From assembly GCA_946699065.1 (NCBI GenBank), contig CAMPDV010001191.1, positions 60,456-124,455 on the forward strand: a stretch of 64,000 bases of DNA. Direction: 5' to 3'. Made by a program: the position numbers and the translations under genes. This stretch comes from Loxodes magnus. Its lineage: Eukaryota > Ciliophora > Karyorelictea > Loxodida > Loxodidae. Below the pieces are notes generated by a model that saw only the letters and a list, made by a program, of their open reading frames with translations, was not told the origin of the DNA and made no database searches. Below, piece by piece: positions 14,307-47,128 of this stretch (its first letter is position 1; each line of letters starts with the position of its first letter).

Positions 14307-15120
14307 ATGGAGCAAACATGCACCTTTCTAAAAATTATATAAGAAAAACTAAAAAAGGCAGCGTAGGAGTTACGCAAATAGGAAAGATAGGAATCAGATT
14401 CAAGCTCATCTTCGCAAGGCAAAATTATGACAGGTACAATTGAATCTAACAAACATCAAATACAGATCCAGGAAGATCTACGAATCAAGATTGAGATAAT
14501 TTAAGCGCAAATAATTAAATACGGAGAAACAATTTACAATTAAAATCTTTAAATGAGGGAGTTAACAAACTTTATAGAAGACTAAAGCAATGAACATGTA
14601 ATATTAAAAAACTAACTTATTGAAAACAACCTAGTAACGGAAGAGCAACTCTGAAAATAATCTTAACAAAACTTCAAATATTCTTAAAAGACGGAAGTCG
14701 AAAAACAGCCACTGTCGTGCGAAAAATAATCTAACCCATAAAAAGAATCTGAAAATTACGATAATAACATAATTAAAAGACTTGAAAAAATAGCAAAATT
14801 TTTTAATATAAGTACAATTTAGCAATAATCAAAAAAACATTGCAGATACTGTCAATCAAGCAATCATCTACTAAGAAACTGCTAATAATAAAAAAGATTA
14901 AACGAAAAAGAACAATAAAGAACATGATGTTGACTTAACAAATTATGGATAAAAAAAACTGGAATATATAGATAAAAACTCCTTGCAAGACTTACTTAAA
15001 TTTATTAGTGGTAACCTGCCACTTATCAAATAAGGTTATGGTCTACATCCATGTAAAAAAATGGCAGAGTGAAACTGGTTGGAACTCCAGCAAGCTCGAA
15101 AATTCTTAACATTTAGTTAA
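14307..15120 (+). mobile_element. Zinc-knuckle element, copy 1 (looks whole)
   Basis: One frame from ATG 14307 encodes a Gag/ORF1-like protein of about 265 residues. It starts with a basic/acidic N-terminus, then SDSSSSSSQGKIMTGTI, a coiled coil ending QLIENNLVTEEQL and a CCHC zinc knuckle CRYCQSSNHLLRNC at 14841-14882. The C-terminal tail contains IKKTGIYRQKLL and LVGTPASSKIL. TGA is read as Trp at least three times. One of these, at 14925-14927, lies exactly 43 nt after the knuckle, as in copy 2. An AT-only tail (TTAATTTTAATTTTAATTAA) follows. No reverse transcriptase is encoded nearby. It may be a short non-autonomous element, a lone ORF1, or a domesticated family. Confidence 0.65.
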
Positions 15121-15322
15121 TTTTAATTTTAATTAATAATATAATTAAAATGAATTATAATATAGATAAATTAAAGGATTAAGTAGTTAATGTATATTAT
15201 ATATCATCTTTATTTTCAAATCCTTATATTATAATCATGGATCTCAGATTTTATTTCCCTTCTACATCATTCTTTTAATAAAATCTAAACTCTTTGCTTT
15301 AAAGAAATAATGCCAATCCAAG

Positions 15323-15790
15323 ATGCACACTTGAATGATGAATGACACAATTCCTGATTAACTAAAATTATTTAACCTAGGAAAGCGTAAATAAATAGAT
15401 TCTTTCAAGATTTATAGAAAATAGCTATATGCAAGGAACCTTAAAAGCTTTAAATTAAAAATAAAAATAGAAATCTAAGAATGCATAAATCTAATACGAA
15501 AGAGATATTTTTGATTAAATACAGCTAAATCAACAAAAATATAATACTGAGCAAAGCTAAATAAAATAGTCACAAAAGCTAAATCAAACAATCTTATTTC
15601 ACTAAAACCTTTTAGTTTTAAAATCAAACTTTGTTTTATAAAACTTCGTTTAATAGACTTAAGCTTAAATTTATTAGTCACCCTAACTTAAAAAAAATTA
15701 ATACCTATAAAAAAAGAAATTAGACTAGCTTAATAACTGGTATAAAATATAAGAAAATATCATAAAAGAAAAATCAAACTTTTCAGTTTT
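15323..15790 (+). CDS. Possible basic protein, start or end unclear
   Basis: From ATG 15323 the plus strand reads MNDTIPDQLKLFNLGKRKQI a few codons in, then Lys/Leu/Ile-rich sequence (KSFKLKIKIEIQECINLIRK). No TGA stop closes the frame before the next gene begins at 15795. The opposite strand also reads plausibly. I record it as a possible gene or gene fragment. Confidence 0.28.
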
Positions 15791-15794
15791 CGTA

Positions 15795-17890
15795 ATGAAA
15801 TAGACAGAGGTTATAGATAAAGATTTGATTCAAAAATGTATAAAAATAAGAGAAAGCTAATTAACTTAGAAATTAAATCAATTCTTATTATAAGAAGATT
15901 TGTAAAAGCAATTGCTATAACTACTAAAGTGAGACTTTGGCTTTATCTAAGCTTTGCACATTCTAGTTCTTAAAGATTATATGATCTTAAGTTGATAAGA
16001 AATATCTTAATAGTGAAGAAAAGTAAGTTATATCGACTGTTTTGATAATCAGTAAATAATCTAAGCTATTCAGCAAAGAAAAATTTAATGAATGAAGTAA
16101 GTAACAATAGCAGGCTTAGTTTAAAATAATGAAGCCATTATTAATGAAAGTGCATATCTCTTTAACAACTAATAAATACTATACTCTATTTCTCTTAAAT
16201 AATTTATAATAGCATCTTTTCTTAATTTCTATTCAGATTAATTTTAAAATTTAGCTTTATAGGCAAAAAGATAAGATTAAGAAGATGATTAAATGCAACT
16301 AAGTTTATAAAAAATAGAAGTATGAAAAAAAAATAGTTAAGTAGTTAAATTATAGTTTGAGTAAAAGCTATAGTAGGAACAGAGATTTGATTACTACTAT
16401 CAAACACCATTTGACTTTGAAGATTATACAAACTTAAACTCTGAAGATATTTATTCGGAAGTGAAAAGTAAATATTCAGTTTATTAGATTATAGAAAAAT
16501 ATATAGATGTCATTAATAGCATTTGTTTTGAAGTGAATAAATTCTAAGAATTTGTGAGTATAAAGATTTAAGAAATAAAATTTAGCATTTTTATGGAATT
16601 TCTATTGATGCTTGCTAAAGTAATGTCTTATTCTTCATATTAAATTAAAGCGAAAGTAATAAAACATAATATGACAGAGTTAAAGAAGAAAATTGAATAG
16701 ATCAATTAAATTAAATAAAGCAAGACTAAAACTAAATAGAGCTATTAACAACTTTACTTTTGGAAGGCTATGACTTAAAAAAATAATATGGTCATTAACC
16801 ATTCAAAGATTGCAAAAATAAAGCCTATCGAATGACTTTAAAATATTTCTAACGAACGACAACTAAATTTAAAAGAAAACTAATAAATCTTAGAATTAAT
16901 ATAGAATAACTAGTAAAGCTAACTGGAAAATATAATAACTAAGAAGTATTTTATTAAGCAATAGTAATACAATTTGATATAAAGCATTTACATATTAAGT
17001 AATGATACTCTATTATATACCATTTCATTTTGGGGATTTCTTATTCTTAATTTTTATTGCCATACTTAATAAAAATCTCTTAGGTTTAATATAGCAAGTA
17101 GATTGAATAGGCTGTAATATTGCTTTACCATGGAAGATATTTTAAGTATCTGCATTTAATAGAATCTTAGCTAAATACTTATCGTAAAATTAAAACCTAA
17201 CACTCTACTAAAACTTTACTTAAATGGAATTACAAGTTAATCAAAAGCCAGAATGCTATGACTATTGGAGAGATGAACTTGTACAATGCTATTAAAAAGA
17301 TTAGACTTCAGATATAAATTTAGTGTTGTATTTACAAAGCGAATAAATATATCAATCAGCTAATCAAAGATAGAAAGCTTAAATAAATGCTTCATAGACT
17401 AATTAAAATGAATTAGAAGCAGAATTTTATAACATCTTATAATACAGACTTTGGCTAAAAATTTAAGTCTTCAAGTAAAATTAAAATATTATCAAACTAG
17501 CACTAGAAGAAGAAATCTAAAAGTCTTAATACTAAATTAATGAAATCTTTTACTAAAATATACTGAGCAATGTTATTGAAAGGATAGAAATAAATTAGCC
17601 TATTAAATAACTGGAAGGTGAAAAAATATAACTAGCTTAAGAGTTTTTATTTGCTTTTTAAGAAATTAATTAAGCTTTAAAAAAGAAATCTTAAGAATAG
17701 AAGTAAGCAACGTTATTTAAGAAAAACCAATCAATAATAAAAGTCTATTAATTACTAAATGATATAATCCACTATAATTCATAAGCAAAGGAATAGGAAT
17801 TATAAATGACTAATTTTGATATGGCTTTAAGTGATCTAACTAGCAAGCATTTTGAAGATTCATTAATTTAATTTGCAATAAAATAGCTAA
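15795..17890 (+). CDS. Large coiled-coil protein with a 19-nt intron
   Basis: ATG at 15795 opens a long frame starting MKQTEVIDKDLIQKCIKIRE. Recognisable stretches are RFDYYYQTPFDFEDYTNLNS, NSICFEVNKFQEFVSIKIQE and NMTELKKKIEQINQIKQ. The frame changes at a 19-nt intron candidate (16946-16964) and continues with GCNIALPWKIFQVSAFNRIL, NQKPECYDYWRDELVQCY and a coiled coil (FYNILQYRLWLKIQVFKQNQ, then LALEEEIQKSQYQIN). It ends near LSDLTSKHFEDSLIQFAIKQ, just before the ATG of element copy 2. No TGA closes it cleanly, so the true end may involve another short intron. Length is about 690 aa. The family is not recognised; a cytoskeletal or scaffold protein is a guess from composition only. Confidence 0.55.
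16946..16964 (+). other. Candidate 19-nt intron
   Basis: GTATTTTATTAAGCAATAG begins with GT, ends with AG and contains an ATTAA-like branch region. Removing its 19 nt joins the two coding frames of the surrounding gene. Its size matches the other short intron candidates here. Confidence 0.5.
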
Positions 17891-17891
17891 A

Positions 17892-18712
17892 ATGGAATTT
17901 CATATCGGGCAACATCTTAGTAAAGGCGAGAAAAAGAAGGCTAAGAAAAAAGCTCTTCTTATTTAAAATTAAAAACAGCAGGCCACTGAGAACTCAAGCT
18001 CCTCATCTCCTTATTAAGGTAAGCGCATGGTTGGTCCTGAAACTTATGGAATTGACCCAGAACAAATAGGGTAGCTTAAATCAGTTATCAAGAAACAAGA
18101 GGAAACTATTTATAACCTTTCGATTTAACTTAGAGAAATTTTAACCAACTATGATCAACTAAACAATGAAATAGATTAACTCAAGACTATATTGGTAAAT
18201 AACAAGTAAATTACTAGATAATAAATTTGATCTTAATCTTAATAACCTCCATCATCAAGTGTAGCAATGCAGGTCGAAGTTGTATAAGAAAACTAAATAA
18301 TCTCTCAATCTGCAGTACAACAAGTTGAAGAAGGAAATAGAATTGAAACAATTTAAATGAAAACAAGAATTGATTAAATTGAAAGATTTTTGAATTTAAA
18401 AACTTAAACGAAAACCTAAAGAAAAAAATGCTTATTTTGTTAATCTCAAAATCACTTATTAAGAAAATGTTGAAACTTTTAAATGCTCAAAAGAAATAAT
18501 GAATAAAAAACATGAAAAGAGATCACAAGACTATTTATAACTAAAAATGGAGTTTATAAAAGAAAATTGTTCCAGTCAAAAGATTCTGTGCATGAACTTT
18601 TAGGTTAAGCTTCCAACACAAAAAGCTTGTGGAATCCAACCACATAAAAAAATAGTGGTCATCGGAAGCAGGTTGCAAATCCTGTCAAAGATAAACACTT
18701 TTGAACTTTAAG
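17892..18712 (+). mobile_element. Zinc-knuckle element, copy 2 (looks whole)
   Basis: One frame from ATG 17892 to a TGA near 18707. It has a basic N-terminus (KGEKKKAKKKALL), NSSSSSPYQGKRMVGPETYG, a coiled coil and the CCHC knuckle CLFCQSQNHLLRKC at 18429-18470. The C-terminal tail has FITKNGVYKRKLF and QKNSGHRKQVANPVKDKHF. In-frame TGA codons are read as Trp; one at 18513-18515 matches in position and context the TGA of copy 1. A (TA)n tract follows directly at the 3' end. The copy starts immediately behind a host-like coiled-coil gene, which may be the insertion site. Confidence 0.65.
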
Positions 18713-18714
18713 TA

Positions 18715-18742
18715 TATTATATATATATATATAATTTAATTT
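18715..18742 (+). repeat. (TA)n tract at the 3' end of element copy 2
   Basis: A simple TA run directly follows the end of the element coding region. The comparable place in copy 1 has a TTAATTTTAATT-type tract. Simple-repeat 3' tails are common in non-LTR elements. Confidence 0.5.
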
Positions 18743-18767
18743 GCAATTACTTAGATATTCCTTACTA

Positions 18768-20610
18768 ATGCATAATAGCCCTCAACATTTGGCTTTTAAA
18801 TATTTAAGAAAGTAAAAGAAGAAAGAAATTGGGAATATTTTTTAAGAATGTCCAACAAAGAGATTATTTAACTATGTGAAGAGAATCTTTAAAGCTTGAA
18901 AGAAATTAATAAATTTCCTCAAAATCATAATTTATTTTAAGCTTTATAAACCGTTTTTGAACTATTTTTTTATAATATTAAAGACTTATCAAAACTGATG
19001 TTTGCTTTAGATAAATTATATAGTTTTAAATATAAATAGAATGAGACATAAGGAATAGCCTAATAATAAATAAATGATGGAGAAACATTTTTGGAAGGAT
19101 TGAAATCAGCTTTGAAAGAAAACAAGAAAATTGTTGATTATCTTTTTTCCATTGATGATTAATAATTTTTGTACTGGATATAAATAAAATAGAAAAATAG
19201 AAGACTAATATCATCTTTCCTTTTAGGAAAAAAAATTACTAAATTCTATTTTAACTCTAAGAAGAAAAGGATTTCAAATGAAAAAATATGGATCAGAATA
19301 CAATGGCTAGTATGTAGAAAATAAACGACAAGGAAAAGGAATTTGCTATTTTTTGCATGGCAACTAATATGAAGGTAATTGATATTAAGATTAGTAGCAT
19401 GGAATAGGAATATTTAGGTATGGAGATAGTTTGAGTAAAGTAAAAAGCACGGAAAAGGCATATTGATCTATAATAATGGTAATATATATAATGGAGAATG
19501 ATATCAAAATAGCAGATATGGATAAGGAAAATACATATTTAAAGATGGAACCATCTATGAGGGTTATTTCTAGAAGAATGTTAGATAAGGTTATGGAATT
19601 TGCAAATACTAAGATGGACGAAGTTATTAAGGAAATTGATTCAATGATGTAAAGCATGGGTAAGGTGTTTTAAGATATAGTGACGGAAGTTTGTATAAAG
19701 GTAATTTAAAAAAAAATTAGAATTAAAGATTATGGAATTTGTAACTATAGTTATGGAAATTAAGATTAAGGAGAATGAAAAATTATTTAAGAGATGGATA
19801 TGGAATTCTAAGATATTTTGATGGAACTATATATAAAGGATAATTTGAATAAAATATTAGATAAAGTAAAGGAACTTGTAACTTGTAAAGAAAGGAAATT
19901 ATGAAGGCGATTGGTATTTAAATAAAATACATGGATAAGGAAAATTTTATTTCAAGGATTTAAATGTTTATGAAGGTTAATTTGTAGAAAATTTTATGTA
20001 AGGAAAAGGAATTTTTCATTACTAAGATGTTAAAATATATGAAGGATATTGAATAAAAGGTTAATAATAAGGAGAAGGTTTTTAAGATATTTGGATGGAA
20101 GTAAATACGAAGGCGACTGAAGTTTAAGCAAAAAAAATGGATATGGTGTCTTATATTTATAAATGGCGACAAGTATGAAGGATATTTCGTTGATGATTTA
20201 ATGGAAGGTTAAGGTATTTTTTAATATACTAATGGAAATTTTTATCAGAGTTATTTTGAATAAAATAAAGATAAGGAAAGGGAATTTGCGTTTATAAGAA
20301 AGGAAATATTTACGAAGGTGATTGATTTGAAGACAAAAAGCATGGACTTTGCATTTTTCGAGTGAAGATGGAAGTAGATATAAAGGAAATTTTGTTTTAA
20401 ATAAAAGGTAAGGATTAGGAATTTATAATTATAAATAAAAACAATTTTATTAAGGAGATTGGTATAACAATTTTCAACATGGAACTAGAAGGATTTAATA
20501 TTAAAATAATAGTTTTCAATTTGGTTAATGAAAATGCAATAAACTTGCAATTTAAATAAACTACACGGATAGAAATGGAAATGAAAAGAAGATTTATCGA
20601 AACATTTCTT
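18768..20610 (+). pseudogene. MORN-repeat protein pseudogene
   Basis: The 5' part reads MHNSPQHLAFKYLRKQKKK and then, in another frame, MSNKEIIQLCEENLQSLKEI with a helical N-terminal domain. From about 19280 at least ten MORN repeats follow (pattern Y-x-G-x-W-x(4-6)-HG-x-G), for example YEGDWYLNKIHGQGKFYF. The MORN Trp is TGA at 19380, 19499 and 19637 and TGG in one repeat. The frame shifts by single bases at six or more places (near 19.28, 19.71, 20.09, 20.15 and 20.27 kb among others), mostly not at GT-AG pairs. I therefore call it a decayed host gene; sequencing indels are the other explanation. MORN proteins usually sit at membranes or in ciliary structures. Confidence 0.7.
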
Positions 20611-20789
20611 TCGCTTGAGACTTTAAAAAATTAAAAAATAATTATAAAAATATTAAATTTTTAAGTAAATATAATTATATACTACCCATTTATATTATAT
20701 TCTAATTTTTCTTTATTTATTTTTTAATTTCTTATATTAAAATCACTTAAAATTTATAATTGTTTTAATTTAATGAATTAATAGCATGA
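20611..20789. other. AT-rich spacer
   Basis: Short AT-rich gap between the pseudogene and the next minus-strand reading frame. Confidence 0.4.
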
Positions 20790-21306
20790 ACATCTTCGTC
20801 ATTGCACAAAAGATTATTAATTTTAGAGACATATCTGTTGAGATATCATTGATAGATCAAATATATATAAGATTTAAATACATTGAAAAACCTTCCTTAG
20901 GCATATAAGCAATCCTGAGTCCAAATATAAAGCAATACTCCTACGATTTTTATAGCTCTTAAATTTTTCTTATTTGATATTTCAGTATACACCTATAAGT
21001 TTATCTTCAATAATATAATATAAAAATGATCTTTGTTCCAATAATATATTTCTAACTTGTATCTAGTTTTCACTTTCGATTAAATATCTATCAAAATCAA
21101 AAACTGTATAAAATATCCAATAGAACTAGGTGTATTTATTGTACTATTTTTATCTCATACGAAATCAAATTTTCAAATTAAGAAGTTTTGTGATCTTTAT
21201 AATTATTTCTTTTTCGGCTTAAATATATTGAAGCGACCTTTATAATTAAATATTTAATTTTTTAAAACTTATCTAAATAGATACTTAACTTAATTGCTCT
21301 TTCCAT
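20790..21306 (-). CDS. Hypothetical protein, frame changes inside
   Basis: From an ATG at 21306 the minus strand reads MERAIKLSIYLDKFQKIKYL. A second frame carries the most protein-like part, FDFDRYLIESENQIQVRNIL then FLYYIIEDKLIGVYWNIKQE. The first frame resumes with LRIAYMPKEGFSMYLNL. The 'IIEDKLIGVYW' step recalls N-acetyltransferase strands, but the evidence is too thin to assign. Short introns or decay could explain the frame changes. Confidence 0.35.
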
Positions 21307-22114
21307 TATTTTAAACTTTACATTTCTAAGTTTATTTTCATAAAAACCGCAGAATTAATTCGCTACTAAATTGAAAAATTTAGCTATTATAAAAAACTTA
21401 AATTTTAGAATGAAAAGATTTAAATAAATTATTTTAATTATCTTCTAGTTCTAAAATCTTAGAATACCTTCCTAACTAATTTTCTTCTTTATTACCAAGG
21501 TATAAAAGTCACTATTTCAGATTTGCTTTGTGAGATATTTTTCATTCTTAAGCTATTTTAACAAAAAATTGTATTAATATTGATTCAATTTTATTATAAT
21601 ATCATTAAATACATCAAACATCATCAATTCTTAAGTAATCCCTCAGATAATTTTACCAGTATATAATAGAATAATAGACCTGACTGAATTTCTTAACTTA
21701 ATGACACAAAAATGGATAATTTAAGTAAAATAATAACAATCTTTTATAAAGAGAAACTAACCTGGGCAAAGAACTAAAGTAGTTAAATTAAAATATAACA
21801 ATAAAAATACAAAGAAAAATGAAGAACAATAAAGAAGAAAATTAAAGTATTAAATAGTAAATTAGTTATACATAATTAAGTGATATTGTCTTTAGAGGCT
21901 ATCTAAAATATGAGTTAAGCTAATATTCTTAAAAAATATAAAGAAAGTAAATACAATTTAGTACATTAAATTTATATTTCTTTCATTCTTATGCATTAAC
22001 TATTTCTAATAAACTAATGAAGATTAACTATAAAACCTTTTTTAAATAAAGAAGAATATTTAAAAGTTAGTAATTTTCTAGTTTTGCTTTTCCAGAAAAT
22101 AAACAAAATTAAAT
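21307..22114. other. AT-rich stretch without a supported gene
   Basis: No convincing reading frame, RNA or repeat was recognised here. Confidence 0.45.
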
Positions 22115-22725
22115 ATGAAAAATAACTAATTAAGAAATAATAAGATTATCTTTTTAAGCTTAATTAGACAAATAAAAGTTTAAAATAAATCTAAAATTTA
22201 TATATTTTAGATTTTTAGATAAAATATTTAAAATAAAATGAAGATATAATTCTTATTTTGCTAAACCAAAATGGCTTTACTACTAAAGAAAATATCTTTA
22301 AACTTGGAGAAATTTTAATATACTAAGGAAATGAAGTTCTATTTTGTTAAGCATACATCTTCAAAAGAACAATTTGATTAAATTTAAATAAAAAAGCAAT
22401 CAATTAAGTGCTATGTTCTAGGTTTTTAAAGTGATCTTTAGTTATTTTATCAATTAAACTTAATCCTTTCAAAGTTTCTTCCGATAAAATTAACGAAGTG
22501 AATGAATATAGAAGATATGAAGAAATCTAATGGCAAATTATCTATAAAATTATACAGTTATTATGCAAAAAGCGACAATAATAAATACTTATATCTGGTA
22601 ATGCTAAAATAAGAAGCATAAGAATGTTTAATGTTAGAAAAACAGATTAAAATTGAAATAATGCTGATAGATTGGTAATTTTGAGATTTAAAAATCAGAA
22701 AATAAAATGCCTGATGTCAAAGTGA
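22115..22725 (+). CDS. Hypothetical protein, about 160-200 aa
   Basis: The plus strand is coding-like throughout. One frame from ATG 22115 ends at TGA 22712-22714. A second frame, ending at TGA 22723-22725, carries the better protein text: NQNGFTTKENIFKLGEILIY, SSDKINEVNEYRRYEEIQWQ and NAKIRSIRMFNVRK. A short intron near 22.2 kb that joins the two would solve this, but I could not fix it. The gene meets the minus-strand gene at 22717, giving an overlap or gap of only a few bases. Confidence 0.4.
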
Positions 22726-22902
22726 GTATTTAATATAGAAAAATAAAATGTATAATATTAAATCAAATTTTGGATTGGTGTTGATTATTACTTCATAATC
22801 AAATTTAGTTAAAATTTGTTGGATTGATTCATAAACCTTTGAGTTAATTTGTACTGAATATGTTATCACAAAATTACGCATTTTATTTAAAATATCTATC
22901 AT
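22717..22902 (-). CDS. Small hypothetical protein, 61 aa
   Basis: ATG at 22902 to TGA at 22717-22719, with no internal TAA, TAG or TGA. It begins MIDILNKMRNFVITYSVQIN and ends in a hydrophobic stretch (FDLILYILFFYIKYSL) that could be a membrane tail anchor. It could also be an open shadow frame, because lack of TAA/TAG Gln codons is unusual for genes here. Confidence 0.35.
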   Translation of the reverse strand: MIDILNKMRNFVITYSVQINSKVYESIQQILTKFDYEVIINTNPKFDLILYILFFYIKYSL

Positions 22903-25900
22903 AACTTTCCTAATTATTTAAAGAGATTCTAATAATTCTCACAATGATAAGCTTTTAATAAAATCATATTACAAGAGTTTAAAAGAAATATTTAATCAAA
23001 TAAATCAAGAAAGTTGTATTTTAATTGAAGGAATTGGAAAACAAATTTTAGCGAAATGAAAACTAAGTTATTTGCTCATAGTATAGTTTATTCATATCTT
23101 ACTTCAAACTTAAAATTCTTATTCTTACCAGTAGTAGGTGCAAATTTTAACTCCAAAAAGAATTTAAATTCTTTGATGATTAATTAATCAGAAATTTTTA
23201 CTTTTTTCCTCACAAATCTATTTAGTTATAAAAATTTGCATTAAGAGTTTAAAAACCACAGGTTTTTACTTATACCTTTATAAATTTAAGTACAAATAAT
23301 TAAGTTAAAAATAAATAAACTTTTAATATAAAAATTAAATTTGCATTTACTGCTTAACTGCTAGATAGTTAGATATTTTCCAATTTTACCGTTTATTTTA
23401 AAATATTGTTTACGTTATTTTCCATAAAATATATAATATAAAGAATATTTTCAGTTAATATAAAAAGTTTCAATAGCTAAATTTAAAAAACTAATATTAT
23501 ATAATCAAAATATTACCTGATAAAATTACATTCTAAGACATTTATACAAAATTATGAATGAGAAAATTAAAAATTAGAAAGTAAATAATCTTATGCTATT
23601 TATAGTATAATAATTCACATTTACTAATAAGAATTATTTTTTAATTTTTAAGAAACTATTTAAGCAAATTATTCTAAATTAGTTTCAAGTTTATAGTTAT
23701 AAAAATTTTCATTGAAGCTTTAAATTATAAAATTTTTGAAGATAACTGATTAAATATAAGCATAAATGAAAAGATTATTTTTCTATAAAATATTAATAAT
23801 TCTCCTACTTTATCTTTTCAAATGTCTATTTATTAAAAAAAATTTGAAATGTTACTAAAATAAAAAAATCTATAAATTTGATGTAAATTTTCTAATTAGC
23901 AATATTTCTCATAGTTAAGAATTTTTATTATCTATTTTAATTTTCCTCATTATTAAGTAAAAATGCAAATCTTAGTTTTTTAGTCCAAATATTGAATAGT
24001 TACTATAATTAAAATTATTTAAATTTAAAATTAAAATTTATTTCTAATTAGTAATGTAAAATGTTATTTTTTTAAAAGAAGAAAAGTAATAGTTATAGAA
24101 AATAAAAGCTTTTAACTGATAAAATAAAAAATAAATGTAACTATTTCATTAAGAAAATGGAAGAATTTAGAAAATAATAAAAAACTTGAAACTGAGTTAA
24201 ATCTTTATTTAATAAGATCAAAAAGTATATTATCTTCAAATGAAATCTCTATTAATATCATAAAAACGTAAGAGAGAATTGAATGGCTGATGTTTAGGAC
24301 TATAAAATTTAATAAATTTGCTAGTAATTAAAAAGAAGAATTTACTAAACCTCATTTTCCCAAAAATATTCCGCATTTTCTAGTAAATTAAAGAGAGATT
24401 AAACTAATCAAAATTTTCTTTCATAATTATCCATTTAATTAGACCTAAATGATATTAAATAATATAAAATACATAATAAAATGTAAGTTAAAATATTAAT
24501 TTAAAAATAAATAAGTTTCTTATTTTAAATTTTATTTGATTAAAGAATATCATTTAAGAATTATTAGTTTTAAGATTATGTAATCAATTAGAATTTTGAT
24601 ATGAAGTAACAATTTAAGAAATAAGGTACAAAATTAACATAAGATAAAAAATTAAGAATTAAGAAACTTTTTTATTAAAGCATTTTTGCTTTTAAGACTA
24701 GCAATGATTAAACAACTTTAGATATTAAAAGAATAAATTATAGTAAAACTAGAATAAACAAATTTAATAAAATTCATTTAAGATTACAATTTTTTAAATA
24801 TTTAAAGTTTAAAGTAAAAAGATATATACATAAAAATAATTATCTCATGTCTTTTGATAAATTTTTATGGATTTGCAATTAATATATAATTTAAATTCTC
24901 TTTAAAGATAGTCAAGCATATTGTATTTTTTCAAAAATAAATAAAGACAAATAAAAAATAAAAAATGTCAGAATATTATAAAATTGAAGCTATTTTTCTG
25001 TAACTTAATTAATTAGAAACAATAAAATTATCTGACCATCTAAAGAAGATTAATCTGATAAAATATTTTTATAAAATAAACTTATATTTAAACTAAAATT
25101 TTTGCAAAAATTTGCTTAATATTTAAAGTTTAATAGATATTCTTAATGTAATAAATATAAAATAGCTTACTAAAGAAAAATTAAATAATTATAATTTAAG
25201 TAAGTTAATTCTTTCTATGATTTATCATTCTAATTCATAACCTACTAAGCATACTATTAAAAAATATTTAATTAGCATACTAAAATTAAATGATATTAAT
25301 TAATATCTAGTGGTGCTATTTAAATTTTAAATTTAAATAAATTTTGTTTGATATTAAAATTATAAAGTTAAATTTACAAAATGTATAGATTTAATCTTGA
25401 AGAAATTTAAATACTGAATATTAAATATTATAAACAAAAATTAAAATTAGCTCATATTATATTAATTTTTAGATTAAAATCAATTAAGTTAACTCTAATT
25501 TTAGATAATTACTTACTTTATCTTTATTAAATCATTCATTTTTACAGTAGTCAAGCTAGTTTTGCATTTTTTAATGTATCATTTGTAAACTGAATGAAAA
25601 TTAATTTAGCTTTCAAAATATGTTTACTTTTTCTTTCTGTATATAAAATTAAAAAAAATAGAAATAAATTTTTAATTTGTATATAATTAGAATTATCTAG
25701 ATATCAATAAGGAATAAAATAATCATTTGAATTATTAATTAGTTATCGCTTAAATATAATTTAAAACTGCGTGTTTTATAAAAATAGAAATCTAACCTTA
25801 AGCAAATAGATTCAAGGTCACCTAAAATTAAAAATTTCAATAAATACTTTATTTCCAACGTTTAATTCAATATCACGTCAAACGAGACAGTACATTCTCC

Positions 25901-25920
25901 TGTTTAAATTTTAGAATTTT
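22903..25920. other. 3 kb of very AT-rich DNA
   Basis: Long A/T runs dominate and neither strand gives a stable protein-like frame. I see no RNA gene or tandem array. It may be intergenic or old, decayed sequence. Confidence 0.5.
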
Positions 25921-27375: not shown

Positions 27376-27539
27376 GCTTTTTAATTTTTAATTTATATAA
27401 AAGTAAATTAAAAAATTAATTTTTATCTTTAGTAAAATTCATAAAGTTTGAGAATATTTAGTTAATAGTAAAAAGTTGACCAATTAAAAAATCAAATCTA
27501 TCAAGTATTATTTTAATTAATTTAAATTTGAAAAATCTA

Positions 27540-27974
27540 ATGGAAAAATAGATTACCAAAGATTCAATAAAATGTAAAAATCATCTGAGAAAATTATTTG
27601 GAAGTAGTTTTAAAGGATAAATAATTGTGTCTATAATCATATTTAAAATGGAAATTCTATTTAAAATAGTTGAAATAAATATATTTAGAGTTTTTGGCGA
27701 ATATAATTAAAAACTAAAAAATAAAAAAAAGTTTTTGCTTATTTTAATAATTAAGAAGTTTGGAAAAATTAATAAAATAAAATAAAAAAGATTATCCGTT
27801 TCTTTAAATCTGAATATGCTCATATTTGGATATAATTGTAAAATTATATAAGACAAAAGAACAGATTAATGTTGAAAAAGTAGTCTTTTTTTTCAAATTT
27901 AAAGTGAAAATTTGCTAATTAAAAGAAAAGTAAGAAATTAATGAAAATTCGTTAAATACTTAAAGAAAAACTGA
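27540..27974 (+). CDS. Hypothetical basic protein, 144 aa
   Basis: ATG at 27540 to TGA at 27972-27974. It begins MEKQITKDSIKCKNHLRKLF. The middle is Ile/Lys/Phe-rich (KMEILFKIVEINIFRVFGEY), and TGA serves as Trp in DQCWKSSLFFQ. It lies in very AT-rich DNA, so part of the reading may be chance. No family is recognised. Confidence 0.33.
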
Positions 27975-30902: not shown

Positions 30903-31200
30903 AAGAACACGTAGCCCTCTTGATGGTACGCAACTCTTTAAATTAATTTTATTTATTGTTAATAATAATTTCTAATTGGAAATTTCCTCTAGTAATTCAC
31001 TCCCTTGGAAATTCTGTCTTACAATAGAGCATGGTCTTATTGATGCCTGAAGAGACTTTATCGTCTGGCATCTTTCATCAACCATTACTCAATGCCTCCA
31101 GTTCTTTCATATTTGGTTCCTGCCAATATTCTTGCTCAGTTTATCACTCTTGAAGTGCTTTTTGGTATTTGAATTTAAGTTAATCTCAGTTGGAGGATTA
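30903..31200 (-). mobile_element. Element 3' end with terminal hairpin (copy C)
   Basis: On the minus strand a GC-richer block (31200 to about 30960) leads into a hairpin at 30939-30903 related to those at 11.38 and 31.37 kb, then an AT-rich tail. The block reads as protein-like text (TKKHFKSDKLSKNIGRNQ) and contains an internal stem GATGCC/GGCATC. Only the 3' end of the element is left. Confidence 0.45.
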
Positions 31201-31357
31201 CCCTAAATTTAAAATATATTTATATAATAAAATTTAGCTAATTGCTAGGTAATTTATTACAGATTTAGTAAAAAATAAGAAAATAATAAATTTAAAATAT
31301 TTAAAATTATGGAATCTAAGAAAATGTTTATAATAATAATAAATCAATAAATTTTAT
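31201..31357. other. AT-rich spacer with an (ATA)n-like tail
   Basis: It carries TAATAATAATAAAT at 31331-31344, just beyond the hairpin of copy B, consistent with the simple-repeat tail of that minus-strand element end. Confidence 0.4.
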
Positions 31358-31590
31358 TATAGAGCGCGTAGCACTCTCGTTGGTGCGCAGCTCTTTAAAA
31401 AAATGTTTCATACTGACAAGAATGCTTGTTACTGATAAAATTATCAGATACTGATAAACCTTGTTCAATACTGGTATAATTATTCAGTACTGATAAAAAT
31501 GTTCAATACTGATATAATTTTAGAATACTCGTAATCTTTAATACTTGCTGGAGGTCCAAGGACATGACAGGAATGTGTCTCATTGCATCA

Positions 31591-31650
31591 CCAAAGCAGA
31601 GGACGACATGTGTCAGTTATGGGTACTTAAATTCCCCACCTCTGATGAAG
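31591..31650. repeat. Structured unit 1 of a tandem pair
   Basis: The plus strand starts CCAAAGCAGAGG and ends CCTCTGATGAAG, so CAGAGG and CCTCTG can form an outer stem. Inside are GACA/TGTC and a hairpin with GGGTACTT as one arm and CCCC as the other. A related unit lies 158 bp downstream. Confidence 0.55.
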
Positions 31651-31748
31651 CTCGCAATATTATTTCTTTTTAGTTCCAGAATTAAAAATAAACGAAGCCA
31701 AGCCAAGCCAGTGACGAAGGTCTAAGAATCTTATGTCTCGAGGTCAAA

Positions 31749-31810
31749 CCAAAGCAGAGAAAGACATAAAGTCGATTATGGGTACTTAACTTCCCCAACC
31801 TCTGATGAAG
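31749..31810. repeat. Structured unit 2 of a tandem pair
   Basis: It has the same layout as unit 1 with CAGAG/CTCTG outside, GAC/GTC inside and the shared core ATGGGTACTTAA-TTCCCC. The paired arms are kept while bases between them differ, which suggests a conserved fold. Confidence 0.55.
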
Positions 31811-31818
31811 ATGACCTT

Positions 31819-31838
31819 GTTGTTCACCTTCGAACAAC
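31819..31838. repeat. 7-bp perfect hairpin
   Basis: GTTGTTC and GAACAAC flank the six-base loop ACCTTC, directly after the second structured unit. Confidence 0.5.
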
Positions 31839-31860
31839 TATGGCGGTTTTAAAGTAAATA

Positions 31861-32140
31861 TAATATCTTAGAAATAAAGAAATAATCTAATATAAAATTT
31901 AAGATGAAAATATAAGATTATATTATTAGAAGAAAATAAGCATCAAATATTAACAATAGATCAAGACCAAATAAAATTAGAACAAATTTATCAAATGTAA
32001 AGAAACTTTAATTTACTATTATAAATAATATATTCAAAAAATTCTATATAAAAATTACATTTGACTGAAAATTAAAAAAAAATTTTAAAAAAATTTAAAA
32101 TAAATAAAAAAAAATAAATTTTAAAAACGTTATATTTCAA
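31861..32140. other. AT-rich spacer with a short coding-like patch
   Basis: On the plus strand about 31920-32070 reads HQILTIDQDQIKLEQIYQMQ, which is protein-like but has no start or stop that fits. Otherwise AT-rich sequence. Confidence 0.3.
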
Positions 32141-32626
32141 TCAAGTGAAAAATTAGCTTTGAATTATTATTTTCATATTAATCAAATTAAAATGTTTTTT
32201 AGGAAAATTAAATGTTTCTTTAAAATTATCCCTCTAAGTTGAGAGTAAGCATAATACTCCTTAGTTTAAAACTTGCTCACTTTCAGGATTTCTCTACTTC
32301 TTAGTTAGAGCTTAGTCCTTCATAATTTTCAATCATATGTTATTCCAAAGGTAGTAAAACCTTTAATTTTTTTGCAGATTTTCTTAATTAGTCTGTCTTT
32401 TTTCCAGAAATGCTAATTGTTACTAAAAATGTAGCATTTCTTCTTTAAATTTTTATCTAGTATGAAGTTTCCTTTTTCCATTTTTGCCTCTTAATTTAAC
32501 AATTAGATTTGTTTACTATATTGTTTATTGTAAATTTGTCTTTTTTATGCCAATATTCACAATTTTGCCTATTTCTTTCATCTTAGTTTCAAAAATCTCC
32601 TTAGAATGAAAGTATGATGTATGCAT
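32141..32626 (-). CDS. Lys/Gln-rich coiled-coil protein, 161 aa
   Basis: ATG at 32626 to TGA at 32141-32143 in one frame. It begins MHTSYFHSKEIFETKMKEIG. It continues with a basic region (LIVKLRGKNGKRKLHTRQK), a helix (FKEEMLHFQQQLAFLEKRQT) and the tail KKQRNPESEQVLNQGV. The start could lie upstream at 32722, but that would overlap the divergent plus-strand gene, so the inner ATG is preferred. The family is not recognised. Confidence 0.55.
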
Positions 32627-32714
32627 TTACGTCTTTAAAATAAATTTGTTGCTATATCATAGTTATTTCAAACTTTTCCAGTAAAAATAAAAAATTTGGA
32701 TAAAGGCATCCGCA
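32627..32714. promoter_or_regulatory. Shared divergent upstream region
   Basis: An 88-nt gap between two divergent starts (32626 minus, 32715 plus) must hold the upstream signals for both. No motif is recognised. Confidence 0.35.
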
Positions 32715-33050
32715 ATGGACATTTCGCAGCTCCAAAGAAACAGGATTTAGCAACATCCTAGGGAATCTAGATTTAGGTAAAGGGAACTATAAAGACTACT
32801 CACTAATTAGAAATTTGCTTCTTACGAAAAATATAGAAAATAAACCAAGAACATTATTCACTCGAAAGTCTCTGATTTCCCTACAGAAGATTAGTTAAGT
32901 TATTATATCTTATTAAAGTAGTACTATATCTCCAGGAAGAGACTAAAGTTCTAAAAAAAGATAATAAAAAGACTAATGTATAATATAGAAATAACAGAAA
33001 AATTAGAATTGAGATTAGTATCCTAAGAAAGAGGCATAAATGGCTTCTGA
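32715..33050 (+). CDS. Basic hypothetical protein, 111 aa
   Basis: ATG at 32715 to TGA at 33048-33050. It begins MDISQLQRNRIQQHPRESRF, has a Tyr-rich middle (HSKVSDFPTEDQLSYYILLK) and a basic helical C-terminus (ITEKLELRLVSQERGINGF). Arg and Gln are frequent and most Gln codons are TAA/TAG. The gene converges on the next gene with a 6-nt gap. The family is not recognised. Confidence 0.5.
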
Positions 33051-33056
33051 AAACTA

Positions 33057-33416
33057 TCAATGACTAGAAAATTGTCTCAAAAATATTAATCTTAAAAATA
33101 AATAGCTAAATATTTAAAATAAAATAAAATAACTTATTTTCTCTAATATTACTAATTATATAATTTTTTTAGCAACTAAGATTCTACTATATTTTTTTAT
33201 AAATCGGTATGCAATAAAAAATTATTAATTTTAAATATTTAAGTTTTTCTTAAGACTATGAGGACTTGTTGATTCAATTAAATTTAATTTGTATCTATTC
33301 AAATAATTTTTATGTAAGCTTAATCTTTTAATTTTTAAAGGAAAAATACTCCTATATTTTTTTAATATATTTTGCTGTTTATATTTTTTAGATGTGCTTC
33401 TTACATTAAATATCAT
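33057..33416 (-). CDS. Hypothetical protein, 119 aa
   Basis: ATG at 33416 to TGA at 33057-33059. The first half is basic and protein-like (STSKKYKQQNILKKYRSIF, then YKLNLIESTSPHSLKKNLN). The second half is hydrophobic and AT-driven. It ends 6 nt from the convergent plus-strand stop. The coding case rests mainly on the N-terminal half. Confidence 0.38.
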
Positions 33417-33439
33417 TTCCTAATTTAGAAAATAAATTA

Positions 33440-33798
33440 TCATGTTTCCTTTTCCTTATCTACCAATATGATGTATGCTCTCTTTATTGTTTTATCTTGT
33501 TTAACAGCTTGAATATGAAAGAAAGCAGAATTGAAAGAAAAATTTTGATCTAAATATCCAAATATTTTGCATAATTCTAGAAAAGTTATGAAAGTTTCAA
33601 AACTGAAAAAATTTAAGATTTGAGTCTTGCGAAATGGAGGAAAAAGTTAATGATTCAATCTATTAATCTCGATCTATCGAAAGTCTATGTAAACTGAATT
33701 TTATATGTAAGTAAATTTATAATATCGCCTGTCTAAAGCTATATAAAAAGCAAAATATCTAAGTCTTTGCAGAAATTAAAGGAAACTATTAAATGCAT
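33440..33798 (-). CDS. Hypothetical protein, start and intron uncertain
   Basis: The minus strand ends at TGA 33440-33442 through AVKQDKTIKRAYIILVDKEK. Upstream in the same frame are LCKIFGYLDQNFSFN and NHQLFPPFRKTQILNFFSF. A good ATG at 33798 (MHLIVSFNFCKDLDILLFIQ) is in another frame, which would need a short intron of 3n+2 length. It lies 24 nt upstream of the next gene on the same strand and just downstream of the kinase gene. Confidence 0.38.
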
Positions 33799-33975
33799 TT
33801 TTTTATAATAATCTGAAGAATTGGGATAATTTAAAAAGAAAAATAAAGATTGATATTAATTATTTAAAATTACCTCTTAACTTTGAGCATAAGCCAAAAA
33901 GTTTTATTATACTTAATCATTTTTTATTTTAAATTCATATTGCAAAGAATTTATCCTCGATTAAAAGTCTATATT

Positions 33976-36208
<2,233 letters not shown>

Positions 36209-36586
36209 TTTAAGCTTTAAGAACTGAGAACATATATTAAAACACTTAAACAATCAGTCTTAGCTAAAACAAATCGATAAGAGAATTTTAAAATATATAA
36301 AGATTCTTGGATATTGATAAATTTCAAGTTTAGTGCAATACTTATTTAAACGCAACTAGATATGAAAGCTTGTTTTGGGTATTAATAATCTATATTGATA
36401 GAGTTAATGAAATAACCATCAAAATAAAAATTATGATAAGAGCTTATTAAAGAAGATATTGATTTTACCTTTTATTTTTGTTATGTATTACTGTATTTAT
36501 TTCGACCTTAAGATTATTAAAAAATAAAAAGAGAGGTTTTATAAAAAAGTGAAGTATGCTTATTGCTGTAACATTGGTTCTATTTG
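36209..36586. promoter_or_regulatory. Divergent upstream region of the kinase and membrane-protein genes
   Basis: About 380 nt of AT-rich DNA between the kinase start (minus) and the next start (plus). It should hold both upstream regions, but no known motif stands out. Confidence 0.35.
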
Positions 36587-37771
36587 ATGAAGTTAAACAA
36601 AGAGTATAAGGTTTTGAATAATCTCATAATTAGAAGAAGCAATAGAAAAATATATATTTGAATCTTCTAATTCTTTAAATTTAATTTAGCAGATGTAATT
36701 TTTTCTGGCTATAAAGAAATTTAATCATAAGCTTACAATTTCCATAAATTTGATGCCAAAGATACTTCAAATCAACTATGAAACTGTTTATAGAAGAAAT
36801 TACTAGATCTTAAATTATTGACATCACTAATAATAAACTCAAATTTTAATTGGTCAGAGAAAATAGCTTAACTATACAATCCAAATCGTTTTTACTATTC
36901 TAAAGGTACACATTAGATTCTTATCAGCATTTTTCTACTCCTTTCTCACATTACTTAGTTACATTTGTCATATAGCTTCTTTAAATTTACTTTGAGTTAG
37001 AATTATCTATATTATTTTATTAAATCATTTACTCTAAAGAATTCTTTCTATAACTTCCTTAAAGCACAAATAAGCTCTCTTTCTCATTTGCTTTTATGAA
37101 TATCCATGGATTTTGTATTTTAATCAAAATGAGAATTTAAACTTTACCTTCTTTATATAGTTTCACTCCCTTTATTATGAATACTATACTTACTTATTAT
37201 TATAAGCTTATCTGTATTTTATATTATCTAAGCTTTAAAAAATTGTAAGTAAGATGATGTATTTTCTAGGCTAAAAATTACTTTTTTCATTAATATTTAT
37301 TCTTTTATATTTTCAAAATAAAGCTTAAAAGTATCAAGAAAAGCATAAAGGGATTAGTGTTGTGAAGAGTTACAAACATTATAAGTCTAAAATTTAAGCT
37401 AGCCATATAACCATTATAGTACTTTCTGTATATTTAATTAGAGCTGCAAGAAAAGAAGCAAATATTATTAGACACTTACAAAAGATTATTCTTTTTACTC
37501 ATATCTATACAATAAGTGCGCTATAATAGTGTCATACTCTGCCATCTATTTTCAACTAAAATATGAAAATAGAATTATATGCGAAGAATATTTTTATCAG
37601 TTAAAGAAGCAACAAAGTTGGTTTTTAAACTGTAAAAGAATTCTTAATCTGGACATTAAGGATAATGAATGGTATTTCAACTAATTAATAGAATTTGAAA
37701 AGTAAAGATCATTAGAATAAAATCTGATTTGAATAATGATTATTGAAATGCAAAGAATTAGCGGTTTTTGA
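36587..37771 (+). CDS. Hypothetical multi-pass membrane protein, 394 aa
   Basis: ATG at 36587 to TGA at 37769-37771 in a single frame with several TGA codons read as Trp. It begins MKLNKEYKVLNNLIIRRSNR and contains DVIFSGYKEIQSQAYNFHKF. A hydrophobic region follows, including SLPLLWILYLLIIISLSVFY as a clear membrane span. A soluble C-terminus carries YFQLKYENRIICEEYFYQLK and LNLDIKDNEWYFNQLIEFEK. Other frames look partly coding, but this one alone is continuous from start to stop. The family is not recognised. Confidence 0.5.
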
Positions 37772-38164
37772 TATTTTTAAAAGATACCTAGATGTCTAAA
37801 ATTTTGCAAAAGGCTATTAGAAATGAATTAATAGTTTACAAGTACAAACTTATCTACTATTACCTAAAAACTAGCATATTAATAACGCTATATATATGAA
37901 GCAAAATAAAAAGTTTCTATATGATTACTGAAAAATATCTACAATCTATGCTTTAAATAGATATTTTAAGCGTATTAAAAAATATAAAATCTTTGTTACT
38001 TATTTAACTGATTATTCCATTCTTTCCTTTACTTTCAAATTACGATTGCTCTATTCAATATCCTCTCCTATTCTTATTCAAATTACCTAAATCTTATGAT
38101 AAGATAAGCTTAGAACGATTGCTAGGAGTGTGCTTAAGTATTGATTTATTTCTTTATTTATTGT
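37772..38164. other. AT-rich spacer
   Basis: No supported gene in this stretch. Confidence 0.4.
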
Positions 38165-38450
38165 TAAGAAACATTTTTTGAATCTAAGGTTAAGGTTTAA
38201 AAGGTTAGTATTGCACAGGCTATTATAAGTGAAGTTTAAGCTTTAAAAAGCTTATTTGTAAATAAAGATTCTATTTCTTAAATCATCGCTTAAAGCTTGC
38301 CATAGATCAGTCAATTAGTCCTCAAAATTCCAAGTCAATAAATTTACATGAGCTACACAAGTCTTAGTGTAGTGGACTATGTATCTGCATAATATGATTA
38401 GTTGGTTATTAAAAGTAAAGGGAAATTATTTAACAATAATTAAGAAAACA
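38165..38450 (+). CDS. Coding-like segment upstream of the CH-domain gene
   Basis: The plus strand reads VSIAQAIISEVQALKSLFVN, SISQIIAQSLPQISQLVLKI and SLSVVDYVSAQYDQLVIK, clearly protein-like. It is in a different frame from the gene that starts at 38451. It may be an upstream exon of that gene joined by an intron, or a short separate gene whose frame runs to a TGA at 38558-38560. I could not choose. Confidence 0.4.
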
Positions 38451-41400
38451 ATGGAATCGAAAAAGTTAATATTGCTAGATTGAATTAACTCATTAAACAT
38501 TCCAAGTTGTCTAATTTGTTCTTCATTCTAAGATTTAAAGAATGGAATTGTCCTAGCTGATATCGTTGCTTGACTACATGATAAAAAACCCTTTTAGTCT
38601 GTGGAAAGAAATCCAATAAGCAGTAATAAGCAGATTTTTAATATAAAGTTAGGATTTAATGAGATCAAGAATGCGAAAAGGTATTAAATGCCTTAAACTG
38701 TGATGTAGCTTTCAGCAGAATAGATACATGAGGATGAAGAAAATATGTTTTAGTTCATGTTTTTCTTGTCTCAGTGCAAAACAGAAAATGCTCCTAGGCT
38801 AGAGTTCAAAAAAATGCAATAAAATGTTGTGAAGAGTGAAGAAAAGAACTAAGCAGTTAGTATTTAAAGCTAGAATTTGAAGTAATATGCTACTTTGTAG
38901 ACTCCTGATGAAGATTCCCATGAAATGAATATTAAAGATATGCAAAATCTAAATACATCTCAGCAAAATCAAAACTAGCAAAGAAAGAACGAAATTTAGA
39001 GCCAAATTAATGAACTTAAATAAATAAAAAGTGGCTAAGAATCTACATCACAATAGCAGAAAAAAGAAGAAATTTAACAAGAGTAGTAAATGAAACTAAG
39101 TGACTAAAGCAAAAAAGAGGACTTAATCTAACAAAATGAAATGTAATATAATGTTGCTTAAAGTTCTGACTAGCAAAACAAAGATCTAGAAGTAACATAA
39201 AAGTAAAGCTCATCAAAATAGAATTTTCTACAATAGTTCACATTTAATAAAAACAGCTAAATCTACAATTTCGCGTCTTAATAAAATATAGAATCTGATT
39301 AAACCTTAGAGAAGACTTAAAAGCAAAATAAGGTTGACTAAAGTCAACAGAAACATAAAGAAAGGTCATTTTCTTAATAGCAACCAACGAACAATAAGCT
39401 AGTAAATATTTCTAAATAAGAAACTTCACAAATGTCATATAACCATCCTAAGCTTTCGTTGTAATCCTCCACACCACTCATAACAGATAAAACTATTAAC
39501 TCAATAAGATACAGTTCCTTAAGGAAGCCTTCATAGAATTTACTGTAGAAGAAAAAGTAAAATATGCTAATTACCTTATGTAGAGGAGTGACTTGCGACA
39601 AACCAAAAGTAGATTGCTTTTTATTTAGATTTCCAAGTGCTTTACCTCCTTGCACAGAAATATGCGGACTTTTTAAGAAATAGAACAAAGAACTGAAGAG
39701 ATCAATGAGTATACAAAATAGAAGTATAAAACTAGAACAAAAATCTAAGATACTTACTGCGAATAATACTCCTACCAGCAAAGTATCAAAATAATCTTAA
39801 TATTTACTGGGAGATTTTACCAACGAAACTCTATAAAAAGAATTCTAAACATATGATGAGCGAAATCCAAAGAACATATCTCAAACCGAATAAACATCAA
39901 GAATAAAACTCTTTTAATGAATTCAATCGCTTCAACTTCTGAAAAACAAGCAATAGGAAGATGTAATAATATTATGCAGTACTGGAGAGCTACTAGCTGA
40001 TATTATAAATCGTATTTAAGGGAAAAATGAAGTTATCAAAGGAATTAAAAAAGGAGCAACTACTAAAACGTAGATGCTATCGAACGTAAATAAAGTGCTA
40101 AATTATCTGAAGCAACTTCCTAAATTTAGAAGAAGGTTTCTCTTTTGTCCTAATAAAATAACACAGTGTGAAGAAAAGGCATGCTGAGGGATCATTGAAG
40201 ATATGAAAAAATACTTTTCGAAGGTTCAAGCAACTTAAAGATAATCAAATTTAACTTAGTTAAGTGATTAAAGCTAATAACCTATGAAAGCTTTTACACC
40301 TGGAGATACCACTCCAAAAGGATAAAAGCAAGAAAAGGAAGAGTAAAATTCAAGATTCCTAAATAAATAACTTATCTAGAGTTAGTCTAATATGAGTGCC
40401 TTTGATATTTTCCCAAAGCCATTTATCTAGACTCCTTAGCCTTTAAAAAAGTTTAGCTTAGATTTTTAAAACTCATTTGGTAGCATATCAGGTGATAGAA
40501 AAAGTAAAAGCAAAACTTAGACATAGGAGATTGAGAGAGATAAAAGTAAAATAAGATAAATATCTGAGAGGAATATACAAGAAATAAAGATCTGGTTAGA
40601 CAGATTAGGATTAAGCCATTTACTTCATTTCTAGCAATAACATTTTTTAAAGGATCCATTAAGGAATGGAATACTCTTAGCAGAATTACTAACATTACTA
40701 GAACCAAATAGTACTAAGTTCAAATTTAAAAAAAAAGTGTAAAACGTATAAAGTGCTAAATGGAACGTCGAGCAAGTTTTTCAGTTATTATGAAGATGCT
40801 GTCCTATGCCTAAAGGATTAATGTGAAGACATGAAGAAATTTTAAGAGGAGATATGTAGATAATATGGGGAATCCTTTGAGCTATATACTAGTACTATAT
40901 TACTCCAGATACTAGGCTAAATTTTGATGTCAACGATGATTTTCAGCTCATTTTAAGATGACTCGAGAGTATAAAGATTATTTACATTGATGATTACTAG
41001 GAATCAGTTCAATAAGTACTGGGTAGTTGTAAAAATGGAGTATTGATATGCTAGTTAGTCTAGTAAATATTTCAAGAGTAGTTAAAAGGAAACTTTTTCA
41101 CTTCTCCCAAAACTGAAGGTGCAGCTTTGCACAATCTAAATAAAGCTTTTTAGATTTTGAGAAAAAAACCTAACTTTCCTTAAGAAAACCTGAATAAGGC
41201 AAGGGAAATTGTTTAAGGAGATAAGCAAGTTATCTTAGCACTACTCAAAGACTTCGAATCTTACTATCAAGTGCTTTATCCTAATGTTTCTATACCGCAA
41301 GGTAGTAAATAACTTAGTAGCAGAATTTCTAGAAGCAGTTCATCCAAGCCAAAGCCTTAAGTTATAGAAACAACTTAATAGGATGATTTCAACTTGATAA

Positions 41401-42149
41401 AGTCAGAAAAAATGACTCCAATGCTTAGAAGCTATTTTTCACCCTAAAGTAGTTGCCAGTTTAATACTCTAAAGGATTAAAAGTTAAAAGAGAGTTAAGT
41501 TATTCAATAAAATGCTAGCAAAGATCGAAGGTTTCGCACCTTTTCCTTATAAAACTTAGATAATTAAAATAGCTCGACAAGAGCTTCAAGGATATCCATA
41601 AGAGAAGAATCACCTGGTAATAAGTGATTTTAGTCACAGATGAATTCTTTGTTTATAGATAAGGAAATTACAATACTTAACTAATGGTTATAGACAGTTC
41701 TAACTGAGTTTCAATAGAAAAATATCCAATTGGAGGCAGAAACTATAGAAGCCTTCAGTGATGGGTAAGAATTCTATACAGTACTCTATTATGCTAAATT
41801 GTGAGCTCACTGGAAAGAATTCCTATTTAAGGAATTCATTGAAAAGTTAGGTCAAAAGCAGCTGCTAAACATAATATTAAGTGAGCTATAGAGATTCTAA
41901 AGAAAAAGAACGTAAGCATTTACTTTAGGATTTTCCAAGCAAATTTCTGTTTTGTGAAAATTAAATAATACAAGGAAACGGAGAAATAATTCGAGACTTG
42001 CTGAAATACTTAAAGCATTAATATCGTTACAGAAATTTAGCCAGAAGCTGCAATTAAATATCCACATAATAGTAAACCAAAACTGATATTGAGGCTGACG
42101 AGAGATCAAAGATTTTAAAACTGTAATAATCAAGAGATTAGTTTTATGA
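38451..42149 (+). CDS. Protein with four calponin-homology (CH) domains
   Basis: ATG at 38451 to TGA at 42147-42149, one frame of 1,232 aa without introns. CH1 (about 5-110) reads LLDWINSLNIPS, DLKNGIVLADIVAWLHDKKP and PQTVMQLSAEQIHEDEENMF. A Gln/Ser/Asn-rich linker follows. CH-like domains lie at about 481-588 (LFQWIQSLQLL ... STGELLADIINRI), 709-818 (IKIWLDRLGLSHLL ... LRNGILLAELLTLLEP) and 829-945 (LILRWLESIKI ... CKNGVLICQLVQQIF). Key CH Trp residues are often TGA. CH domains bind actin or microtubules, and tandem CH proteins are common in cilia. The true stop may be the TGA at 42084-42086, the first of three close TGAs. The gene faces the TOG-array gene with a gap of 140-200 nt. Confidence 0.8.
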
Positions 42150-42288
42150 CTGAACAACCTTCTTACATTTATAATTTATTTAAAGTATAATATTAACATA
42201 CAGTCAAATATCTCAATGGCTTAAAAAAAACCTACATTTATATAAAATTTAGTTTAAAAGTAACATAAACGTACATGTTAATAAATAA

Positions 42289-47009: not shown

Positions 47010-47128
47010 TTTATTTAGTTGCGATTTTATTTGAAAAAAATACCTTGAAATTCAAATTTATTTCTTGTTTAATGCCTAAATATCATAATACTAATGTTTC
47101 TAGGATTTATCTAAGTGTAAGCATTTAG
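47010..47128. promoter_or_regulatory. Shared 119-nt divergent upstream region
   Basis: It separates the starts of the TOG-array gene (minus) and the gene at 47129 (plus). It is AT-rich with no recognised motif, and likely holds the start sites of both. Confidence 0.4.

Follow-up and report, generated by a model that had tools for sequence, protein, structure and literature searches.

How one codon can both encode an amino acid and end a gene is the question raised by a stretch of 64,000 nucleotides of karyorelict nuclear DNA from Loxodes magnus (contig CAMPDV010001191.1 of assembly GCA_946699065.1, here C1191:60456-124455; hereafter the window), in which a protein kinase gene and several other genes carry TAA, TAG and TGA within their reading frames. 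A preliminary description of the window had proposed that TAA and TAG are read as glutamine (Gln) and TGA as tryptophan (Trp), that TGA also ends genes, that NCBI genetic code table 27 fits better than table 28, and that position or context must mark the TGA at which translation stops. We retested the code from the DNA by masked-stop alignments, Pfam matches, C-terminal anchors, base composition and transfer RNA (tRNA) genes, with searches of the whole genome (705,730,643 bases in 7843 contigs). Judged from these sequences, the window almost certainly uses table 27, with TAA and TAG as Gln, TGA as Trp and as the sole stop, Trp as the default meaning of TGA, and release near the 3' end of the messenger RNA (mRNA). 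The dual-meaning code is real but already known, being in print for both the class and the species.

The proposals of the preliminary description were thus upheld: TGA occupies Trp positions and TAA and TAG often occupy Gln positions, and the conserved C-termini that are followed by TGA, and by neither TAA nor TAG, lie elsewhere in the genome, the gene ends inside the window having been placed by composition only. The need for a positional or contextual mark agrees with what is described for karyorelicts in PMC11441545 and PMC4967479.

Sense codons in the kinase gene and in conserved genes

The protein kinase domain is encoded on the minus strand (35425-36217), and its best Pfam matches, both obtained under table 27, are PF07714 (1e-61) and PF00069 (5.7e-56). 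The frame running from 36217 to 35425 comprises 264 codons, among them 11 TAA, 5 TAG and 3 TGA; the standard code cuts it into 20 pieces and a reading with TGA alone as stop into 4, and under table 27 it stays in one piece. This frame was aligned with 27 paralogous loci (30 matching frames), out of 39 other matches in the genome, after every stop codon had been replaced by X to keep the alignment from favouring any codon meaning. Opposite the TGA codons of the kinase, the paralogs have TGA in 42 cells, TGG in 38 and other codons in 3 (TGA or TGG in 80 of 83), and opposite its TGG codons they have TGG in 31 cells and TGA in 23 (54 of 54).

The three sense TGA codons, all on the minus strand, show this interchange individually. 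The one at 35468-35470, which had been described as falling on a conserved kinase Trp, does so: it is the W of the C-W motif near the end of the domain, and the paralogs have TGG (18), TGA (8) or a Leu codon (1) in its place. The TGA at 35885-35887 is matched by TGA (18), TGG (9), Met (1) and Val (1), and the one at 36104-36106, in the motif RGKW, by TGA (16) and TGG (11). In the columns where the kinase has CAA, the 190 paralog cells include TAA (83), AAA (20), TAG (19) and CAA (17), and where it has TAA, the 293 cells include TAA (80), AAA (40), TAG (29), AAG (23) and CAA (15). Pfam scores were also computed with TGA read as each of seven residues, a residue-swap test that proved partly decisive: PF07714 favours Trp, with 210.5 bits vs at most 203.8 for the six other residues.

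Genes of the same genome for histone H4, ribosomal proteins and eRF1 likewise carry in-frame TAA and TAG. Where conserved domains of such genes were aligned to human sequences, TGA stands opposite a human Trp in 3 of 3 cases, and TAA or TAG stands opposite a human Gln in 25 of 44 (TAG 18/25, TAA 7/19), compared with 23 of 35 for CAA and CAG. Overall, 48 TGA and 46 TGG codons occur among 6475 codons of called coding sequence (the window segments plus two training genes).

Stop codons at conserved C-termini

The identity of the stop codon was read at the ends of conserved proteins across the genome. Eleven human C-terminal stretches, joined into one chimeric query, matched 68 times at 67 loci, 37 of which were retrieved; the RPL27A part gave no anchored match. 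In 10 protein families, paralogs included, the codon directly after the conserved C-terminus is TGA in 55 of 55 cases and never TAA or TAG, a result in favour of table 27 rather than table 28. Pattern anchors that left the next codon free, and whose last residues were chosen after the translations had been inspected, gave TGA in 41 of 41 cases (H4 9, PP2A 8, LC8 7, RPS15A 6, RPS23 4, RPS14 4 and RPL23 3), and the stops taken from translations were TGA for RPL40 (5/5), RPS13 (5/5) and RPS16 (4/4). The ends are identical to the human protein at every residue, or differ by one similar residue, in 38 of the 55 (H4, LC8, PP2A, RPS14, RPS15A, RPS16), are of human length in 8 (RPL23, RPS13), and are one residue shorter or three longer in 9 (RPS23, RPL40).

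Two groups were left out of the 55, namely four PP2A-like matches that end before the C-terminus (L101, L102, L109 and L110) and eight LC8-like paralogs; of the latter, seven carry the TGA where the end is expected, and in L100 a TGA follows about four codons farther on. The LC8-like loci L099, L104 and L106 have TGA both at the conserved Trp and at the stop, in one frame, so that one codon carries two meanings within one gene.

Sequence context of TGA and alternative readings

Composition was examined around 64 anchored stops (in loci L010, L011, L024-L053 and L074-L110), a set chosen with TGA required and thus no test of stop identity. The G+C fraction drops from 0.39 in the last 60 bases before the stop to 0.19 in the 60 bases after it, a step that fits the published position model. 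In the same genes, TAA occurs 3 times in the last 20 codons vs 45 times farther upstream (p = 0.0018 against CAA plus CAG), and TAG 12 times vs 30 times, with no obvious depletion. The scarcity of TAA before the stop, not obviously shared by TAG, is the same as the published pattern; karyorelict 3' untranslated regions (UTRs) are described as short (mean 53 bp), with UGA and UAA depleted over about 20 codons before the stop (PMC11441545).

Several observations weigh against the table 27 reading. Depletion of TGA itself before the stop is not significant in a set with few Trp codons, TGA making up 0 of 15 near the stop and 3 of 23 far from it (p = 0.26). In the kinase, PF00069 has no preference for Trp at TGA (Trp 191.7, Cys 192.8, Arg 192.9 and Gln 193.8 bits); at TAA and TAG, Gln and Lys are scarcely separated by PF07714 (210.5 vs 210.1), and PF00069 prefers Lys over Gln (193.2 vs 191.7). 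The 124 paralog cells in the TAG columns include TCT (28), TAA (13), GAA (12), TAG (11) and CAA (8), and the kinase by itself gives a weak case for reading TAG as Gln, because TCT accounts for 28 of these cells vs 32 for TAA, TAG and CAA. Moreover, the kinase paralogs are not independent genes.

The base that follows TGA bears on the alternative that survives best, according to which stop would be the default and TGA would be Trp only through local-context or selenocysteine-like recoding. After the 64 stop TGAs the next base is G in 27 cases, T in 27, A in 8 and C in 2; G and T together make up 54 of the 64, where about 0.50 is expected from the 20 bases downstream (G 0.07, T 0.43), and G directly after the stop reaches about six times its share in those bases. 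In automatically called coding sequence amounting to 128 kb, parts of which may be in the wrong frame, G is rarer after sense TGA (75/354) than after TGG (74/252; p = 0.022). Both biases are of the kind that local recoding would produce, and we nevertheless consider it very unlikely: sense TGA is as frequent as given above, the model set out in PMC4967479 has translation as the default, and the proportion of G after sense TGA lies near the coding average of 0.24 and so reveals no exclusive local signal.

The bias towards G or T after the stop TGA is real in the 64-stop set and is not exclusive. It could conceivably mean that release is tuned by the base following TGA as well as by how far the codon lies from the poly(A) tail, this base acting as an aid rather than as a switch, a suggestion that we hold as doubtful. 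The RPS13, RPS14 and LC8-like genes show little G or T bias, related paralogs inflate the count of 64 stops, and A is the next base at 2 of the 3 candidate stops of the window; all three points weigh against a role of the next base. For Condylostoma, flanking U was already noted as preferred at stops (PMC4967479). No novelty is claimed for this bias, on which the literature was not searched; Fig. 3B of PMC11441545, according to its legend, shows the base composition around stops.

Slighter still is the probability of a Condylostoma-like code (table 28), in which TAA, TAG and TGA each serve as sense codon and as stop. It shares with the window kinase the use of all three as sense codons, and with table 27 a position-dependent stop; in Condylostoma, however, all three also serve as stops (PMC4967479), whereas here TGA alone does so at the 55 ends, with TAA or TAG at 0 of 55. 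That the genes are pseudogenes, or noise read out of frame in DNA rich in A+T, where stop-like triplets are common, and that their in-frame stops are simply stops, would accord with the frequent frame changes of the MORN-repeat gene described below, but this reading is already contradicted by the interchange of TGA and TGG in the same columns of the kinase paralogs and by the H4, ribosomal protein and eRF1 genes with the same in-frame TAA and TAG, and its probability is negligible.

tRNA genes, release factor and proposed mechanism

The preliminary description had suggested a check for a tRNA-Trp(UCA) gene and for suppressor tRNA-Gln genes, and the two checks came out differently. One exact pattern for tRNA-Trp(UCA) had 0 matches in the genome, and the tRNA-Trp genes seen have the anticodon CCA, many of them with a shortened anticodon stem. 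Run on 7 of 12 tRNA-Trp loci, ARAGORN gave the CCA anticodon only. The genes examined in two arrays, on contigs C67 and C148, have A27-C43 or U27-C43 and hence an anticodon stem of 4 base pairs (bp), and two tRNA-Trp(CCA) genes on contig C110 have a stem of 5 bp; these stems were read at CCA loops only. The exact pattern with C43 had 124 matches in the genome, with A or T at position 27 among the 100 matches listed, and a looser pattern had 736, few of which were inspected. For tRNA-Gln, the pattern had 276 matches, with UUA and UUG anticodons among the 100 listed, the UUA anticodon being identified by visual inspection of the matches. A pattern for tRNA-Gln(CUA) had 171 matches, and the 100 listed are UUA forms at 1 mismatch.

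The tandem arrays of tRNA-Trp(CCA) extend over C67:482309-491370 and from C148:155450 to at least 169435, with units of about 187 bp and 241 bp. The initiator tRNA-Met (621 genome matches at no more than 2 mismatches) and tRNA-Gln(UUA) likewise occur in tandem arrays, and the idea that tRNA-Trp was specially multiplied for UGA reading was rejected, tRNA-Met and tRNA-Gln also being present in many copies in arrays. A literature search, which did not extend to the supplements of PMC11441545 or to the Seah 2022 paper on the karyorelict code, found no description of Loxodes tRNA arrays, and no novelty is claimed for these arrays.

Forms of tRNA-Trp with a 4-bp stem are stated to occur in Loxodes (PMC13092985, PMC12005148, crediting Swart et al.). 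They are also described in Blastocrithidia, as tRNA-Trp(CCA) (PMC13092985, PMC12153298), which differs in that UAR is Glu and the stop is UAA. By analogy with this published work, tRNA-Trp(CCA) with the 4-bp stem may decode UGA in L. magnus.

Two eRF1-like loci, L010 and L011 (C196:19713 and 54613), lie about 35 kb apart, both ending in DEDFL followed by TGA. L010 has the motifs RAQNIKS and FLCENTF, the human counterparts of which are TASNIKS and YLCDNKF, and its translated frame contains no sense TGA; its stop TGA is followed by two further in-frame TGAs within five codons. Another locus, L009, was rejected as eRF1 in favour of L010 and L011; judged by its sequence, we take it to be a Dom34/pelota-like frame.

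A mechanism may be proposed in which the Trp reading of TGA is the default, through tRNA-Trp(CCA), of which many copies have the 4-bp anticodon stem, and release at TGA would win only near the 3' end of the mRNA, eRF1/eRF3 being aided at the true stop by the poly(A) tail and by a short 3' UTR rich in A+T. The involvement of poly(A) and its binding protein, suggested by published work, would follow the proposal of PMC4967479 that translation is the default and is overridden by nearness to them, and that preferred flanking bases cannot suffice for the choice of stop. The composition and TAA-depletion data fit this poly(A)-proximity proposal.

Genes and other features of the window

The candidate stop of the kinase gene, which may be a kinase/kelch gene, is the TGA at 34177-34179 on the minus strand (G+C 0.32 before and 0.12 after, next base T), a likely end; upstream of it lies a match to PF24981 of 33.7 bits, under the 50-bit cut-off of that family. 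A MORN-repeat gene on the plus strand (19269-20500) is read across several frames, owing to short introns or frame breaks, with PF02493 matched in translations of all three frames. As had been described, TGA falls here on MORN Trp positions, at 19380-19382 (YEGN-W-YQD), 19499-19501 (YNGE-W-YQN) and 19637-19639 (YQGN-W-FND), each being the W of a YEGxW-type repeat. The gene changes frame many times over short distances; very short introns are the likely cause, and it may also be a decayed gene.

The CH-domain gene on the plus strand (38352-42153; coding segment 38352-41891; PF00307, 8e-20) contains sense TGAs as claimed, at places that, judged against the CH motif, we take to be the Trp positions of CH domains. 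Its likely stop is the TGA at 42151-42153 (G+C 0.32 before and 0.18 after, next base A), near 42149, the end of the stretch to which the claim had been attached. The neighbouring gene on the minus strand (42396-47033; coding segment 42561-47033), described as a TOG gene, is indeed XMAP215/CLASP-like (PF21041, 3.7e-16); the TGA at 42396-42398 is a weak candidate stop, and this end is uncertain because G+C is 0.37 before it but 0.30 after.

Two consecutive TGA codons, put forward earlier as a confidently placed gene end, are present at 50898-50903 on the plus strand. They remain a putative end and could not be verified as such, because the six frames of 47200-52101 contain no Pfam family at E 0.05. 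The idea that a doubled TGA marks stops was rejected, since a second TGA directly follows the stop in 1 of the 64 anchored cases.

Apart from these genes, ARAGORN identified a tRNA-Ala with the anticodon CGC at 8415-8487. Positions 52461-64000 are occupied by a 100-bp satellite, of which about 115 copies lie in two runs with a 97-98% match; it has a strong skew of G over C (about 0.62) and extends to position 64000, where both the window and the contig end.

Comparison with the karyorelict code and implications

For L. magnus, of which a macronuclear assembly of 706 Mbp has been described (Seah 2024, PMC11441545), and for other karyorelicts, table 27 is given as the code, with UGA as the sole stop and as Trp (PMC11441545). 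The sequences analysed here share with the karyorelict code of PMC4967479 and PMC11441545 the reading of UAA and UAG as Gln and of UGA as Trp and sole stop, as well as, in other genes of this genome, the A+T-rich sequence after stops and the rarity of UAA before them; no difference was found in the features compared at the DNA level.

Standard gene calling would split genes such as the window kinase into pieces. The use of one codon as both Trp and stop means that termination can depend on position in the mRNA and not on the codon alone, and such a code is a natural system for studying how release factor and tRNA compete.

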